Both the position numbers and the translations under genes were made by a program. This document shows positions 361 to 23,761 of a DNA stretch of 37,045 bases, one piece after another. The DNA is from Xanthobacteraceae bacterium (GTDB lineage: Bacteria > Pseudomonadota > Alphaproteobacteria > Rhizobiales > Xanthobacteraceae). The DNA lies in contig JAIELW010000016.1 of assembly GCA_019752575.1 (NCBI GenBank), positions 1 through 37,045 of the forward strand, read 5' to 3'. The notes below the pieces were generated by a model. It saw only the letters and a program-made list of their open reading frames with translations. It was not told the DNA's origin and ran no database searches. Each line of letters opens with the position of its first letter. Positions within the stretch are counted from its first letter, which is position 1.

Positions 361-407
361 CGCAAACTGTTGCGGCATAAAGATTTCCACCCCCGCGCAG
401 TTCCCGA

Positions 408-425
408 TTAACTCTTCGCTAACCA
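408..425 (+). promoter_or_regulatory. Second CtrA-box-like site upstream of flhA (proximal)
   Basis: TTAA (408-411), seven bases, then CTAACCAT. One half-site is perfect and the other has a single mismatch. It is 65 bp after the first box, so the two sites are spaced by roughly six helical turns on the same side of the flhA promoter region. Class II flagellar genes such as flhA are known CtrA targets in Caulobacter; activity here is inferred. Confidence 0.6.
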
Positions 426-486
426 TAAACTGGGCAATTCTTGCCGGGGTTTGGCGTCGGCAAGACGATTCGGGACTGGGCACTTC

Positions 487-2604
487 ATGAGCGACACGAC
501 CGCCGCTGGCGGCGTCAGTTACAAGCCGAAAATGCCGACGATGGGCGAGATCGGCGCCATGCTGCGCCGTGGCGATCTCATGCTCGCGGTCGCGGTCCTC
601 GGCATTCTCGTCATTTTGATCATGCCGCTGCCGCCGATGGCGCTCGACCTTCTGCTGGCGCTCTCGATCATCTTGTCGGTGCTGATTCTGATGACGGCCC
701 TTTTCATTCAGGGCCCGCTGGAGTTCTCCGCCTTCCCGACCGTACTCCTGATTGCGACCATGTTCCGGCTCGCACTGAACCTCGCCTCGACACGCCTGAT
801 CCTCACGCACGGGCATCAGGGCACCGCATCCGCCGGTCACGTCATCGAGGCCTTCGGCAATTTCGTGATGGCCGGCAACTTCGTGATCGGCATCATTGTG
901 TTCGCGATCCTCGTGATCGTGAACTTCATCGTCATCACCAAGGGCTCGGGCCGTATCGCGGAGGTCGCCGCCCGCTTCACCCTGGACGCGATGCCCGGCA
1001 AGCAGATGGCGATCGACGCCGATCTTTCGGCGGGCCTGATCGACGAAGACACCGCGCGCAAGCGCCGCAAGGACCTCGAAGACGAAAGCTCCTTCTACGG
1101 CGCGATGGACGGCGCCTCGAAGTTCGTGCGCGGCGACGCGATCGCCGGCCTCTTGATCGTCTTCATCAACATCATCGGCGGCATCATCATCGGCATGGCG
1201 CAGCAGGGCCTGACCTTCGCCAAAGCCGGTCAGGTCTACACGCTGCTGACCGTCGGTGACGGCTTGGTTACGCAAATCCCCGCACTGATCGTCTCGACCG
1301 CCGCCGGCCTGCTGGTTTCCAAAGCGGGCGTCTCGGGCGCCGCCGACAAGGCGCTGATGAAGCAATTGTCGAATTACCCGAAAGCGCTCGGCATGTCGTC
1401 GGGCGTCATGATCGTGCTTTCGCTCTTGCCCGGCGTGCCGATGCTGCCCTTCCTCGCGCTCGGCGCCGGCGCCGGCGCACTCGCCTTTGTCAGCACGCGA
1501 AGAAACAAGGCTGCGGCGCAGGCGGAAGCGGCCAAGGCATCCGCGAAAGAACCGAGCCTGCCGCAGGAAGAGCCGATCTCGAACGCACTCAAGATCGACG
1601 ATCTCAAGATCGAAATCGGCTACGCGCTCTTGCCGCTCGTGAACTCGCCGGACGGCTCGGATCGCCTAACCGAACAGATCAAGGCGCTGCGCCGTCAAAT
1701 CGCAAGCGAGATGGGCTTCGTGATGCCGTCGGTGCGCATCCTCGACAACGTGCAGATGGAATCGAACGCCTACACGATCAAACTGAAAGAGGTGGATGCG
1801 GGCTCCGGGAAGGTGCATCCGGGCAGCCACATGGTCATGGACCCGGCGGGCGGCCAGGTGAATCTTGCGGGCCACCACACCACCGAGCCGACCTTCGGCC
1901 TGCCCGCGACCTGGGTGGACGAGAGCTTACGCGAGGAAGCGTCCTTGCGCGGCTACACGGTGGTGGATGCCGCCACCGTCATGTCCACGCATCTCGCCGA
2001 GGTGCTCAAGGCTAATATGTCGGACCTGCTTTCCTACGCGGAAGTGCAGAAGCTCCTGAAGGAATTGCCGAAGGAGCAGGCCGAACTGCTGAAGGATATC
2101 GTGCCGAGTCAGATCTCGACCTCCGGCATTCAGCGCGTGCTGCAGCTTCTGCTTGCCGAGCGTGTCTCGATCCGCGATCTCGGCACCATCCTCGAAGGCA
2201 TCGCCGAAGCCGTACCGGCGACGCGCAACGCAACCCAGATCGTCGAACAGGTACGCGCGCGCCTCGCCCGCCAGCTTTGCGCGCAGCACACCTCGCAAAA
2301 CGGCTACCTGCCGCTCATTTCGCTTTCGCCGAAGTGGGAGCAGACCTTCGCCGAGTCGATCGTGGGCCAGGGCGACGACAAATCGCTTGCGATGCAGCCT
2401 TCGAAGCTGACCGAGTTCGTGAACGAGGTCCGCGAGCGTTTCGAACAGGCCGCGCGCATGAACGAGGCGCCGGTCCTGCTGACAAGCGCGGGTGCCCGCC
2501 CCTTCGTGCGGCAGATCGTCGATCGCTTCCGTCCGCAGACCTCCGTCATGTCGCAGGCGGAAATCCACCCGCGCGTGCGGCTGAAGACGGTGGGAAGCGT
2601 TTAA
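487..2604 (+). CDS. flhA: Flagellar biosynthesis protein FlhA
   Basis: This 705-aa inner-membrane protein is the nonameric export-gate component of the flagellar type III secretion apparatus, which accepts substrates from the FliI/FliJ ATPase complex. The N-terminal part (about 30-335) holds the hydrophobic helices. The FHIPEP-family signature lies at about 156-177 (RIAEVAARFTLDAMPGKQMA). A charged, alanine-rich linker at about 338-365 leads to the cytosolic substrate-docking domain (366-705). The ATG at 487 gives the normal family length and a conserved-looking N-terminus; an in-frame TTG at 451 would add 12 poorly conserved residues. It is convergent with fliJ and preceded by two CtrA-box-like sites. 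The intact reading frame and strong family match make the call secure. Confidence 0.97.
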   Translation: MSDTTAAGGVSYKPKMPTMGEIGAMLRRGDLMLAVAVLGILVILIMPLPPMALDLLLALSIILSVLILMTALFIQGPLEFSAFPTVLLIATMFRLALNLASTRLILTHGHQGTASAGHVIEAFGNFVMAGNFVIGIIVFAILVIVNFIVITKGSGRIAEVAARFTLDAMPGKQMAIDADLSAGLIDEDTARKRRKDLEDESSFYGAMDGASKFVRGDAIAGLLIVFINIIGGIIIGMAQQGLTFAKAGQVYTLLTVGDGLVTQIPALIVSTAAGLLVSKAGVSGAADKALMKQLSNYPKALGMSSGVMIVLSLLPGVPMLPFLALGAGAGALAFVSTRRNKAAAQAEAAKASAKEPSLPQEEPISNALKIDDLKIEIGYALLPLVNSPDGSDRLTEQIKALRRQIASEMGFVMPSVRILDNVQMESNAYTIKLKEVDAGSGKVHPGSHMVMDPAGGQVNLAGHHTTEPTFGLPATWVDESLREEASLRGYTVVDAATVMSTHLAEVLKANMSDLLSYAEVQKLLKELPKEQAELLKDIVPSQISTSGIQRVLQLLLAERVSIRDLGTILEGIAEAVPATRNATQIVEQVRARLARQLCAQHTSQNGYLPLISLSPKWEQTFAESIVGQGDDKSLAMQPSKLTEFVNEVRERFEQAARMNEAPVLLTSAGARPFVRQIVDRFRPQTSVMSQAEIHPRVRLKTVGSV

Positions 2605-2609
2605 TTAGC

Positions 2610-2654
2610 GCGTGATCCCGAAAAGTGGGTACCGGTTTTCGGACAAGATCACGC
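2610..2654. repeat. 45-bp palindromic repeat between convergent flhA and fliJ
   Basis: An imperfect dyad begins GCGTGATC (2610-2617) and ends GATCACGC (2647-2654), with inner arms CCGAAAAG and GTTTTCGG around GGTACC. This is the form of a dispersed palindrome common in Bradyrhizobium/Rhodopseudomonas-type genomes, recognised from general knowledge. It sits between convergent genes and could act as a bidirectional transcript end, although no T-run follows. Confidence 0.7.
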
Positions 2655-2674
2655 GCAGAAGATTTTAAGAGAGA

Positions 2675-3082
2675 TCAGACCCGGATGCGCTGCGCGCCGA
2701 TACGATCCATCTCGGCCTGCTCGCGCGCGGCTTCCGCGCCACGGCCGCGAACCTGATCGCGCTCCTCGAGGATCTCGACCTTCTTCAACTCTTCGAACGC
2801 GTCGGCGAGCTGCGCGCGCGCATCTTCGAGCTGAGCGTGCAGTTCCTGCGCCGAGCGCTTGAGGTTGTCGCGGCGCTGGATCGCGGCCTTGGCATAGGTC
2901 GGATAAGCGAAGTGACCGGGGTCGTTGATGCCGGCGCGGTCCTGCTCGACCGAGATCTCGCGCTCGAGATCGCTGGCCATGCGCTCGAACTCGGCGACCA
3001 TGGCCTCGATCTGGGCGACCTGACGGCGCTTTTCGTCGACCTGAAAGCGCTTCAGGCGAATGAGGGTTTCACGCGATTTCAT
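2675..3082 (-). CDS. fliJ: Flagellar export protein FliJ
   Basis: This 135-aa, highly charged, almost entirely helical protein is predicted to be a coiled coil (Glu/Arg/Lys/Gln-rich heptads over about 5-120). It has the FliJ-type N-terminus MKSRETLIRLKRFQVDEKRR. FliJ is the stalk-like partner of the FliI ATPase hexamer and touches the cytosolic part of FlhA. It starts 24 bp after the end of fliI on the same strand, so the two probably form one transcript. FliJ sequences are poorly conserved, so size, coiled-coil character and the position behind fliI carry much of the assignment. It is slightly shorter than enterobacterial FliJ (about 147 aa). Confidence 0.87.
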   Translation of the reverse strand: MKSRETLIRLKRFQVDEKRRQVAQIEAMVAEFERMASDLEREISVEQDRAGINDPGHFAYPTYAKAAIQRRDNLKRSAQELHAQLEDARAQLADAFEELKKVEILEERDQVRGRGAEAAREQAEMDRIGAQRIRV

Positions 3083-3106
3083 CCCGGCGATACTCCACGC
3101 GACCGG

Positions 3107-4432
3107 TTAGGGCTCAGTTACTGGACTCGCAACAATTTGAGCGAGTGCGCGGTAACCATCGCCTAGATTCGTTTTTTCTTCCTTACCTTGGGACAGGAAG
3201 GCTTCGAGTGCCGGTTGCAGCCGGATCGCCTCGTCCACCTCGGCCGAAGACCCCTGCCGGTAGGCCCCGAGCCGGATCAGCTCCTCCATGTCGCCATAGG
3301 TGGCGAGCAACTGCTTGGCCTTGACCACATCCGGATAGAACTCGGGGTCGGAGGATTTCGGCATGGTCCGGGAGACCGACTTCAAAACGTTAATAGCCGG
3401 GTAACGACCGCGCTCCGCGATCGCCCGCTCCATAACAATGTGCCCGTCGAGGATGCCGCGCACGGCGTCGGCCACCGGCTCGTTGTGGTCGTCGCCATCG
3501 ACCAGGACTGTAAAGAGCCCAGTGATCGTCCCCTGGTCCGGCCCCGGTCCCGCACGCTCGAGCAGCCGCGGCAGCTCGGAGAACACGGTCGGCGTATAGC
3601 CCTTCGCTGTCGGCGGTTCGCCGCCGGCAAGACCGATCTCGCGCTGGGCCATCGCGAAGCGTGTGACCGAGTCCATCAGAAGAAGGACGTCCTTGCCTTC
3701 GTCGCGGAAGTATTCGGCGATCGCCATGGAAAGGAGTGCTGCCTGACGGCGCATCAGCGCCGGCTCGTCCGAGGTCGCAACCACGACCACCGAGCGCGCA
3801 AGACCCTGCGGGCCGAGATCGTCCTGCAGGAATTCCTGCACCTCGCGGCCGCGCTCGCCGACGAGGCCGATCACCGCGACATCGCAGGCCGTGAAGCGCG
3901 CGAGCATCGAGAGCAGCACCGACTTGCCGACGCCGGAGCCCGCGAAAATGCCGAGGCGCTGGCCCTTGCAGGTCGTGGCGAAGGTGTTGAGCGCGCGGAC
4001 CCCGAGATCGAGGGGCTTGCCCACTCTCTTTCTTGTATGCGCGGCCGGAGGCGGTGCGCGAAACGGATAAGGCGAATGGCCGGGCTTGATCGGGCCCTTG
4101 CCGTCCACCGGCTGGCCGTGCGCGTTCACGACCCGGCCGAGCCAGGCGTTCGACGGCCGGACGGCAGCACCCGCCTGCGAGACGATGGCCCGGCAGCCAC
4201 GCCGGACGCCCTCGACCGCCGCAAACGGCATGACCACCGCGTTATCCCCGGCGAAACCGATGACCTCGCAGGGAACGCCGCCGTTAAGGCCTGTTTCGAT
4301 GGTGATGCGCGCCCCGACGGGCATTGCGTGCACCGGCCCGGCCACCTCGATCATGAGGCCCCGGACAGCCGCGACCCGCCCATAAATAAGGGCTCCGTCG
4401 AGTTCCGCGATCTGTTCCGCCAAGGCCTTCAT
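3107..4432 (-). CDS. fliI: Flagellum-specific ATPase FliI
   Basis: This 441-aa cytoplasmic ATPase energises flagellar protein export and unloads chaperone-substrate complexes at the export gate. The N-terminal beta-barrel domain (about 10-90) is followed by the F1-beta-like catalytic domain. Walker A is GSGVGKS (165-171), GERGREV with the catalytic Glu is at 192-198, Walker B is VLLLMD (249-254), and the type III ATPase signature [11 protein letters not shown] is at 345-355. Length is typical of FliI. The gene diverges from ctrA across a 359-bp intergenic region and is followed closely by fliJ. No strong Shine-Dalgarno is visible before the ATG. Confidence 0.97.
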
Positions 4433-5990: not shown

Positions 5991-6007
5991 CGGCAGTCCA
6001 ATTTTCT

Positions 6008-6141
6008 TCTCCCTCCCCCTTGCGGGGAGGGAAGTTTGCCGAGCGAAGCGAAGGCAAACAGGGTGGGGGGTGCTGCATCACCCCACCCGGCTCCGTTCGC
6101 TATCGCGAACGTCGCCACCCTCCCCGTCAAGGGGAGGGAGA
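6008..6141. repeat. REPIN-like paired inverted repeat, type A, cargo-less
   Basis: Two hairpin units face each other. The left unit begins CCCTCCCC(CTTGC)GGGGAGGG at 6011 and runs to GGGTGGGGGGTG (6061-6072). The right unit begins CACCCCACCC and ends CCCTCCCC(GTCAA)GGGGAGGG at 6138. The centre is only about six bases. The flanking bases (AATTTTCTTCT on the left, AGAATAAATTT on the right) are also roughly inverted. The same architecture recurs at 8805-8931 and, with a gene in the middle, at 23281-23732. Confidence 0.85.
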
Positions 6142-6557
6142 ATAAATTTCGAGTTCGGGTTGCGAATGGCATACGTTCTCCTTTCCGCGGCGCGTTTCAG
6201 CCCGGATGATGAATGGAAGGGGGACGGAGCGCCGCAAGGCGCAACTTCGTCCTTTGTCGCGCGCCTCTTTAAAAAAAGCGCGCTCCGCCTTTCGGCGCTC
6301 CGTCTCGGCGTTTCTTCAGCTTCGGGCCGCGCTTTTCGTGAAGCGCTCCCGAAAGAACGCCTCTCCGTCAGCCGTGCTCCCGGCAGGCGAGCCTAGTCTC
6401 GCCGGGCGGTGCCCCGAAGCCGCTCCTGAACCTGCACTGCGAATGCAGGCGCAGAAGCGCCGCCTCCCGCTCCGCTTGTGCGACGCCTCGCGAAGCGCCC
6501 CTCGATGAGCGGGAGTGTCTAGGATTATATTCCTGCAATGTGGCGGGAGGATGGCGT
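6142..6557. other. 416-bp stretch without a supportable gene
   Basis: No credible coding frame is seen; the overlapping frames have arginine/serine-rich translations typical of GC-rich non-coding DNA. It contains an A-run (6272-6278) followed by GC-rich imperfect palindromes, for example CTCCCGCT near 6465 with AGCGGGAG near 6508. It may be decayed sequence bordering the module that follows. Confidence 0.5.
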
Positions 6558-8758: not shown

Positions 8759-8804
8759 TGGACTGTCTCTCTCTTCGTCATGCAGTCTTTCGCACAACCC
8801 CTCT

Positions 8805-8931
8805 CTCCCTCCCCTAGATGGGGAGGGTGGTTGCGAGCGTTAGCGAGCAACCGGGTGGGGTGACGCCGCTCACCCCCACCCTGTTTGCCGTCGCTTCGCT
8901 CGGCAAACTTCCCTCCCCGCAAGGGGGAGGG
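8805..8931. repeat. REPIN-like paired inverted repeat, type A, inside the ABC operon
   Basis: The left hairpin CCCTCCCC(TAGAT)GGGGAGGG and GGGTGGGGTG face the right arm CACCCCCACCC and the hairpin CCCTCCCCGCAAGGGGGAGGG, with about eight central bases. It fills most of the 193-bp gap between the ATPase and permease genes, so it would be transcribed within the operon mRNA and form a large hairpin there. Confidence 0.85.
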
Positions 8932-8951
8932 AAAAGAGAGATGACACCCCT

Positions 8952-10548: not shown

Positions 10549-10557
10549 CGTAATCTC

Positions 10558-10666
10558 ACCTCTCCCCGGCGGGGAGAGGTCGCGCCGTCAGGCGCGGGTG
10601 AGGGGGATCTGTATCAATTGATTCAGTACCCCCTCACCCCAACCCTCTCCCCGTTGGGGAGAGGGA
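10558..10666. repeat. REPIN-like paired inverted repeat, type B
   Basis: The left unit ACCTCTCCCC(GG)CGGGGAGAGGT through GGTGAGGGGG faces the right unit ACCCCCTCACCC through CCCTCTCCCC(GTT)GGGGAGAGGG. The short centre is itself nearly palindromic, with ATCAATTGAT in the middle. The same type occurs at 18002-18119. Confidence 0.85.
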
Positions 10667-10670
10667 GAAG

Positions 10671-10700
10671 AAAAAAGGCCGCCGGATGGCGGCCTTTTTT
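10671..10700 (+). terminator. Bidirectional rho-independent terminator
   Basis: AAAAAA, stem GGCCGCC, loop GGAT, stem GGCGGCC, TTTTTT. It is symmetrical, so it can serve the secreted-protein gene on the left and, on the other strand, transcripts leaving cheR. Confidence 0.9.
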
Positions 10701-10703
10701 ATT

Positions 10704-10869
10704 CCTCATGGTGAGGAGCGCGAGCGTTAGCGAGCGCGTCTCGAACCATGAGCGTTTCAAATCTCATCCTTCGAGACGGCGGCACACAAGTCGGCTTTAG
10801 CCGACTTGTGCATTGTTTATCCAGATGTCGGGCAAGCCCGACATCTGATGCCGCCTCCTCAGGATGAGG
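10704..10869. repeat. Palindromic repeat mosaic downstream of cheR
   Basis: It contains CTCATGGTGAGG ... CCATGAG (10706-10752), and CATCCTTCGAGACG ... CTCAGGATGAG (10765-10868). Inside the second part are two hairpins, 10786-10809 (stem ACAAGTCGGC, loop TTTA) and 10823-10846 (stem AGATGTCGGG, loop CAAG). These hairpins belong to the same family as those at 123-310. The stretch between the secreted-protein gene and cheR is wholly repeat and terminator sequence. Confidence 0.8.
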
Positions 10870-17995: not shown

Positions 17996-18001
17996 TTCTT
18001 A

Positions 18002-18119
18002 CTCCCTCTCCCCAAGGGGGAGAGGGTTGGGGTGAGGGGGTACTGCGTCAGAACTTTTACTCAGAACCCCCTCACCCGGCGAACTCCGTTCGCCGACCTC
18101 TCCCCCACGGGGAGAGGTG
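18002..18119. repeat. REPIN-like paired inverted repeat, type B
   Basis: The left unit CCCTCTCCCC(AA)GGGGGAGAGGG through GGTGAGGGGGT faces the right unit ACCCCCTCACCC through ACCTCTCCCC(CA)CGGGGAGAGGT, around about 24 central bases. It lies between the convergent cysQ and YHS-domain genes. Confidence 0.85.
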
Positions 18120-18140
18120 AAGTTTTCCTGAGGCAGAATT

Positions 18141-23268: not shown

Positions 23269-23280
23269 TGTTTTGCATGT

Positions 23281-23732
23281 CGCTAACCCTCCCCCATGCG
23301 GGGAGGGTCGGCGAGCGCAGCTCGCCGGGGTGGGGGAGCTGTCAGAATCAACAACAGGCGCTCCATTACGCCATCAAGATTTGCGTCTACTTCACTGTTC
23401 CAAAATCGAAGAACGCAAAAATTATGCCGCGTCAAATATTCGTCTCGCGCCATATCCTTCGAGACGAATGCACTCATTCCGTGCTGACCACCATCGACTT
23501 CGATCACCAGTCTCTGATCGAAGCAGACGAAGTCGACAATAAAATTATCGATCGGCGCTTGCCGGCGAAAATGAAATCCGTGCGAGAACCAAAGCGCTCG
23601 CAAACGTCGCCAAAGCTTCCGCTCGTGAGGCGTCAGTTCGTTTCGGAGTTTTCGCGCGACTTCGTTGGCCACACCCCACCCGGCTTCTCGCTGCGCTCGA
23701 AGCCACCCTCCCCGTCGAGGGGAGGGTTAGCG
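23281..23732. mobile_element. Inverted-repeat element (type A) carrying a DUF559 gene
   Basis: The 452-bp element starts CGCTAACCCTCCCC (23281-23294) and ends with its exact reverse complement (23719-23732). Each end continues as the type A hairpin unit also seen at 6008-6141 and 8805-8931, but here about 330 bp with a nuclease-like gene separate the two units. The gene starts in the right arm and stops in the left arm. Nearby GCAT and ATGC flank the ends. Mobility is inferred from the architecture. Confidence 0.65.
23283..23672 (-). CDS. DUF559-domain protein (Vsr/restriction-endonuclease-like fold)
   Basis: A 129-aa protein with the DUF559 pattern: ARKLRNELTPHERKLWRRLRA (about 6-26), FHFRRQAPIDNFIVDFVCFDQRLVIEVDGGQH (about 33-64) and a C-terminal helix with VLRFWNSEV (about 87-95). 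The Asp in IVDFVC and the Glu-x-Asp in IEVDGGQ are the candidate catalytic acidic residues of a PD-(D/E)xK-type or Vsr-like nuclease. The start is a GTG inside the right repeat arm, where GGGTGGGGT could act as ribosome-binding site. The last 18 or so residues and the TAG stop are encoded by the left arm. Activity is not established for the family. Confidence 0.85.
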   Translation of the reverse strand: MANEVARKLRNELTPHERKLWRRLRALWFSHGFHFRRQAPIDNFIVDFVCFDQRLVIEVDGGQHGMSAFVSKDMARDEYLTRHNFCVLRFWNSEVDANLDGVMERLLLILTAPPPRRAALADPPRMGEG

Positions 23733-23761
23733 ATGCCATATTACATTTATCACTGCCGAAT

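Follow-up and report, generated by a model that had tools for sequence, protein, structure and literature searches.

Hairpin-armed DUF559 nuclease genes suggest a widespread jumping element that spreads alongside gene-less copies

A compact DUF559 nuclease gene and the inverted hairpin arms enclosing it co-occur in many phyla, occupy sites where relatives have no insertion, were duplicated together in one genome and share their oriented ends with cargo-less units. These observations suggest a widespread jumping element that spreads as one unit alongside gene-less copies, its likely mover being the nuclease and not a known transposase. We consider it probable that this is a small mobile element, composed of a Vsr-like DUF559 nuclease gene between two inverted composite ends, and that the nuclease moves both the unit and its cargo-less derivatives, as in the RAYT/REPIN system, whose enzyme is unrelated. 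What we infer here is that the nuclease does the mobilising.

The window unit and its gene-less relatives

The window (the whole stretch of DNA analysed, 37,045 nucleotides) is contig C20 of the source genome G000, a 3.0-Mb assembly in 34 contigs; G001 and G002 are among its congeners, and L006 is the gene-bearing unit of the window. That a nuclease-like gene lies inside an inverted-repeat element here, as an initial annotation of the DNA had claimed, proved real. The features of this unit and of the cargo-less units in the window are as follows.

23280–23733, unstranded: complete gene-bearing unit of 454 bp, with the DUF559 gene lying between one arm and its inverted counterpart; absent at the orthologous site in 7/7 congeners
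23283–23672, minus strand: DUF559 gene, 129 aa, Vsr-like PD-(D/E)XK nuclease fold (PF04480, E = 2e-34; fold matches 3hrl, 3r3p and 1vsr)
23287–23307, plus strand: L end (3' side of the gene), outer hairpin with loop CATGC (sequence, hairpin pattern and fold)
23310–23336, plus strand: L end, second hairpin (23310–23326) and then the inward G-rich tail (23327–23336), read from sequence
23673–23704, minus strand: R end (5' side of the gene), inward tail (23673–23681) and second hairpin (23682–23704), with the GTG start abutting the tail (sequence and fold)
23706–23726, plus strand: R end, outer hairpin with loop GTCGA (sequence, hairpin pattern and fold)
6004–6142, unstranded: cargo-less A-family unit, L and R ends with inward tails; folds with z −10.6
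8804–8937, unstranded: cargo-less A-family unit in the opposite orientation; absent in 5/5 congeners tested
10556–10672, unstranded: cargo-less unit of the related B family; flank anchors failed in 6/6 congeners
17996–18120, unstranded: cargo-less B-family unit between two convergent genes; absent in 4/6 congeners tried; folds with z −8.0

Each arm of the gene-bearing unit is composite, consisting of an outer hairpin (CCCTCCCC, a 5-nt loop and GGGGAGGG) followed by another hairpin and a G-rich tail that points inward. The two arms (23280–23308 and 23705–23733, 29 nt) are 86% complementary; the exactness claimed for the inverted ends holds, although over the outermost 15 bp and not 14. As single-stranded DNA the arms fold better than shuffled sequences (z −3.8 and −2.9). 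The open reading frame runs on the minus strand from a GTG start that adjoins the tail GGGTGGGGT of one arm, and its last codons and stop lie inside the other, both as first described; reading GGGTGGGGT as a ribosome site is only plausible because its spacing to the GTG is short.

The 129-aa protein scores 118.2 bits against PF04480 (curated cut-off 20.6). Its closest solved structure is 3hrl (NGO0050 of Neisseria, E = 1.8e-21), and the profile also reaches 3r3p, the homing endonuclease I-Bth0305I (E = 5e-4). An AlphaFold model (mean pLDDT 83.3) searched with Foldseek matched 3hrl (1e-6), 3r3p (9e-5) and, more weakly, 1vsr (6e-3). Through 3r3p, profile and fold both point to a catalytic domain related to that of EDxHD/PD-(D/E)XK homing endonucleases. 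Residues D47, E58, D60 and H64 are among those invariant in 56 sequences and presumably form the catalytic core. In 10/10 sequence pairs dN was well below dS, several dS values being saturated. Profile hits to enterotoxin B chain (E 0.15 or worse) were taken as chance. We also discarded a known RNA family (Rfam gives only a tRNA elsewhere in the window), a defence reading (PADLOC yields one weak DpdF domain match) and a phage origin (a distant homologue in just 2/50,697 phage records).

The cargo-less pairs initially noted near 6008–6141 and 8805–8931 are both real, and the window holds two more, of the B family (10556–10672 and 17996–18120). Throughout G000, the ends of A- and B-family pairs are constant, one on the left and another on the right, with tails facing inward and between them a short spacer that varies; the 36 pairs analysed were selected by a spacing of 40–200 bp, so the set is silent on other genes as cargo. 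Their A-R ends best match the 5' side of L006 (33.1; next L004, 31.5) and their A-L ends the 3' side of L004 (29.7; next L006, 28.7), while B-L ends match L001 and B-R ends best match the 3' side of L002. Such asymmetric, gene-oriented ends support the proposal that the cargo-less pairs are offspring of gene-bearing units, and the pairs resemble products of internal deletion. Another palindrome family (CAAGTCGGCT..AGCCGACTTG) occurs in the window at 154–182 and 10787–10815 and also at L217, L221 and L223; it appears nested within the L end of some A-family cargo-less units.

Arms, repeats and DUF559 genes across genomes

PF04480 matches G000 eight times, in seven compact genes (114–142 bits) and, weakly, in a 406-aa frame. 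To look for arms without presupposing a motif, we took 300 bp on either side of the domain and aligned the upstream stretch with the reverse-complemented downstream one. Inverted hairpin arms were found at 7/7 compact genes (z 8.7–17.9), and the eighth, weak match was negative by this test (z 1.7). Stem sequences vary among these loci and agree between the two arms of any one locus. Exact A-type hairpins (CCCTCCCCN5GGGGAGGG) number 46 in the 3.0 Mb, compared with 0 for the reversed pattern, and a looser hairpin pattern gives 129 compared with 1 for its control. The arrangement in G000 resembles a RAYT/REPtron in that inverted palindromic repeats found across the genome flank an enzyme gene, and REPINs in that gene-less inverted pairs exist in many copies (36 pairs analysed).

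In a combined run with a threshold of z > 5, we tested 75 of 76 compact loci (one lay at a contig edge): the seven of G000 and 68 from other genomes of the same order, mostly the top-scoring locus per genome. Arms were present in 67/75, or 60/68 outside G000. A cross-phylum set comprised 80 loci kept of 577 confirmed, of which one at an edge and two with runs of N went untested; here inverted arms stood at 61/77 loci, and an earlier run on the 80-locus set gave 63/79 with arms compared with 0/122 controls. Control intervals from the same loci as in the combined run showed arms in 1/276. Below the threshold fell 8/75 compact and 16/77 cross-phylum loci, and low-scoring DUF559 loci had arms in 0/7, six of the seven lying in frames of about 400 aa or more. 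Two loci are common to both sets (L085/L205 and L105/L194).

By record title, the arm-positive loci belong to Alpha-, Beta-, Gamma- and Deltaproteobacteria, Gastranaerophilales, Chloroflexi, Nitrospirae and Chlamydiae. The element is not confined to Alphaproteobacteria, the class to which the initial annotation assigned the repeat family. DUF559 genes lacking repeats elsewhere had been named as a point that would count against the proposal, and most compact ones tested do have arms. At L120 (Legionella anisa) the DUF559 locus has very long inverted flanks (score 125), unlike hairpin arms. Among seven loci hand-picked from 44 records of a plasmid collection, 2/7 pass the arm threshold and L168 has visible arms at z 4.1; the Azospirillum and Sinorhizobium loci have no clear arms by the same test. 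The L163 (E. coli) and L169 (Neisseria) loci show a degenerate or single arm at most and are perhaps domesticated relics; their records are classed as plasmids, yet are megabase-sized.

Whether a locus has A- or B-type arms tracks the protein tree. Over 112 labelled loci arm type changes 15 times, compared with a shuffled mean of 33.9 (minimum 27), and over 60 same-order loci 6 times, compared with 17.5 (minimum 12); each test used 300 shuffles and loci with z ≥ 5, with 14/126 excluded for other stems. Since gene and arms are linked, this agreement indicates joint descent and is not by itself proof of recognition.

We surveyed repeat copy number in 149 genomes of the family, many of them drafts, counting as excess the hairpins over a reversed-pattern control and taking a best E at or below 1e-25 as the proxy for a strong compact DUF559. 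The median excess was 51 in genomes with such a gene (n = 110) compared with 7 in those without (n = 39; Mann–Whitney p = 1e-9, copy-number p-values being optimistic because the genomes are related). DUF559 matches correlated with excess per Mb at Spearman rho 0.62, which fell to 0.55 once two arms were deducted for every match; the within-genus value was 0.41 (n = 103). The suspected tie between repeats and DUF559 presence therefore holds in that repeats are commoner with a strong compact gene, but not strictly, as some genomes are repeat-rich without one (G044, 137 hairpins; G016, 100; G089, 64; G079, 52; G024, 42). The congener G002 (C1, C2) has no strong compact DUF559, yet 19 hairpins occur there and many of them form B-family pairs; its repeats are possibly orphans left after loss of the enzyme.

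These repeat-rich genomes lend some weight to an explanation that we nevertheless find unlikely, in which another trans-acting enzyme moves the repeats, which have captured the nuclease gene as cargo retained for some benefit of its own; that DUF559 is the direct mobiliser is, after all, what we infer. Such a passenger would have to account for the same small gene lying between arms across phyla despite differing arm sequences, and for arm type following the enzyme tree. A search of G000 confined to the RAYT-type class (Y1 transposase, PF01797) gave 0 matches at E ≤ 0.001, which counts against the passenger view and also led us to reject a RAYT origin of the unit.

Empty sites, duplication and residence

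When 20 kb of the window was searched against seven congeners, the gene-bearing unit was missing from the orthologous site in all seven. The empty site consists of one gene's terminator, at most a short unrelated spacer and then the neighbouring convergent gene. In congener G001 a unit with 76% identity lies in the adjacent intergenic region, and the G000 site itself is empty. For the cargo-less unit at 17996, four of six congeners were empty, one had other sequence and one was not anchorable; of nine more cargo-less units, seven had hits spanning the joined flanks in one or more congeners, and the other two had hits on one side alone. Empty-site alleles in relatives, on which the initial reading had been made to depend, thus exist for gene-bearing and cargo-less units alike. 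None of the three refuting conditions attached to that reading overthrew it outright, and the evidence supports it in part. Genome G096 carries two 455-bp units that are 93.6% identical over their full length and have unrelated flanks, the shared stretch running about 20 bp beyond one arm.

The homing-endonuclease fold, and the fact that cargo-less pairs far outnumber gene-bearing units in G000, would suit the reverse order of events, in which the pairs came first and the nuclease gene inserted into them. We hold this to be quite improbable: G001 has a gene-bearing unit in a genome where the looser pattern picks out just 4 hairpins, 2 of these being the arms of the unit itself; the G000 site in congeners is wholly empty, with no pair there; and the two G096 copies are alike out to the outer arm edges. 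Spread of gene and arms as one unit remains our preferred reading.

The initial annotation had entertained a homing enzyme; homing into one fixed site is unsupported because insertion sites differ. No conserved cognate site was found, yet positions at metF–metH and beside carB recur. One orthologous region carries a DUF559 unit in many genera (L180, at 386–3314, and L027, L170, L171, L173–L176, L179, L181, L182, L187 and L190), so some copies are long-term residents; the genes beside the L180 unit we take to be metF and metH. The DUF559 loci L001, L067 and L131, from several alphaproteobacterial groups, lie just upstream of a gene that we assume from its protein start to be carB (MPKRTD.KSI at 2019, 1826 and 1933, respectively), and their arms are different or unclear. 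The region upstream of carB is possibly an insertion hotspot.

Long residence at metF–metH would fit an ordinary Vsr-like repair gene, a stable host gene whose arms are terminators or regulatory hairpins, as would the need for VsrA in the SOS response of Caulobacter without ScmA (PMC12907096). This is nonetheless the least likely of the alternatives that we weighed, given the insertion and duplication of the whole unit, the dozens of cargo-less copies that have both ends in common and the seven divergent copies in one genome, all of which speak for the mobile element.

A permutation test on the 36 cargo-less pairs gave no target duplication signal (p = 0.17). On 60 gene-bearing units it gave p = 0.001, led by L059, whose repeat is a tandem arm, but the test is not specific because inverted similarity of the same flanks was likewise raised (p < 0.001). 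At L059 (1300–1990, Robiginitomaculum) a second right arm with a 25-bp flank upstream of the unit mimics a long target duplication; we rejected its 36-bp direct repeat as such, since it is this tandem right arm with its flank. Direct repeats of at least 11 bp near the edges occur in 5/127 armed units compared with 29/3,968 cross-pairings, and three of those five, besides L059, contain arm sequence. Two window units have short repeats that leave the adjacent start or stop codons intact, too few to give a length, and further empty-site junctions were too diverged for target duplications to be read.

Candidate mechanism and known systems

Bacterial genomes abound in palindromic repeats, and RAYTs are believed to move REPINs. 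By analogy, the DUF559 nuclease would recognise the hairpin/tail motif of the arms and would nick or cut both at that motif and at new, mostly intergenic sites, where host repair would then complete a copy. Cargo-less units would be internal-deletion derivatives moved in trans by the resident enzyme, in the manner presumed for REPINs and RAYTs. A more far-reaching version, which we advance tentatively and lean slightly against, is that a Vsr-like PD-(D/E)XK nuclease by itself mobilises a phylum-spanning class of mini-transposons, moving its own unit and large numbers of hairpin repeats with no HUH, DDE, serine or tyrosine recombinase chemistry. Such a system would parallel RAYT/REPIN by independent convergence, and its nuclease would be a candidate for the dedicated enzyme that RAYT-less repeat families lack.

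Like RAYT/REP (REPtron) and REPIN, the unit has a small single-gene enzyme between inverted palindromic repeats, which also occur genome-wide as gene-less inverted pairs, mostly intergenic. Unlike them, its enzyme is a PD-(D/E)XK nuclease and not an HUH/Y1 transposase, its stems are of CCCTCCCC or CCTCTCCCC types and its ends are asymmetric. The unit may work like RAYT/REPIN but is not a member, because the enclosed enzyme is not a Y1 transposase. PMC3733652 gives a GTAG tag as the mark of RAYT-linked REPs, and reports one large REP superfamily without a dedicated transposase, noted there as a puzzle. One passage of a 2025 REP survey (PMC12306157) makes no mention of RAYT or endonuclease, and among the open-access literature matches listed, subscription journals being outside this scope, there was no report of an association between DUF559 and hairpin repeats. 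Repeats of this kind enclose a nuclease gene again and again, from Alphaproteobacteria to Gastranaerophilales and Chloroflexi, which makes that nuclease a concrete candidate for the enzyme behind palindromic repeats; one small protein and short DNA substrates would be enough to test the question.

The gene for Vsr, a repair enzyme, classically stands beside one for a methyltransferase. The window protein shares its fold with Vsr, Caulobacter VsrA and NGO0050 (3hrl); unlike Vsr, the DUF559 gene here is enclosed in mobile repeats. VsrA has a DUF559 domain and is tied to DNA damage in vivo, the SOS response requiring it in cells that lack the ScmA methyltransferase (PMC12907096); this fits DUF559 as an active nuclease. 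Were our reading true, DUF559/Vsr-like nucleases would be recast, and members studied as repair enzymes may reside in a selfish element.

The window protein is likewise related, by profile (3r3p) and fold, to the EDxHD/Vsr-like homing endonuclease I-Bth0305I; unlike that enzyme, the DUF559 unit comes without an intron, an intein or a fixed homing site, and its enclosing repeats spread without the gene. The cargo-less copies resemble MITEs in being short non-autonomous units whose inverted ends match gene-bearing relatives, and differ in that the DUF559 unit has no classical transposase. As for transposons and MITEs, the site of the window unit is empty in relatives, here in 7/7 congeners.
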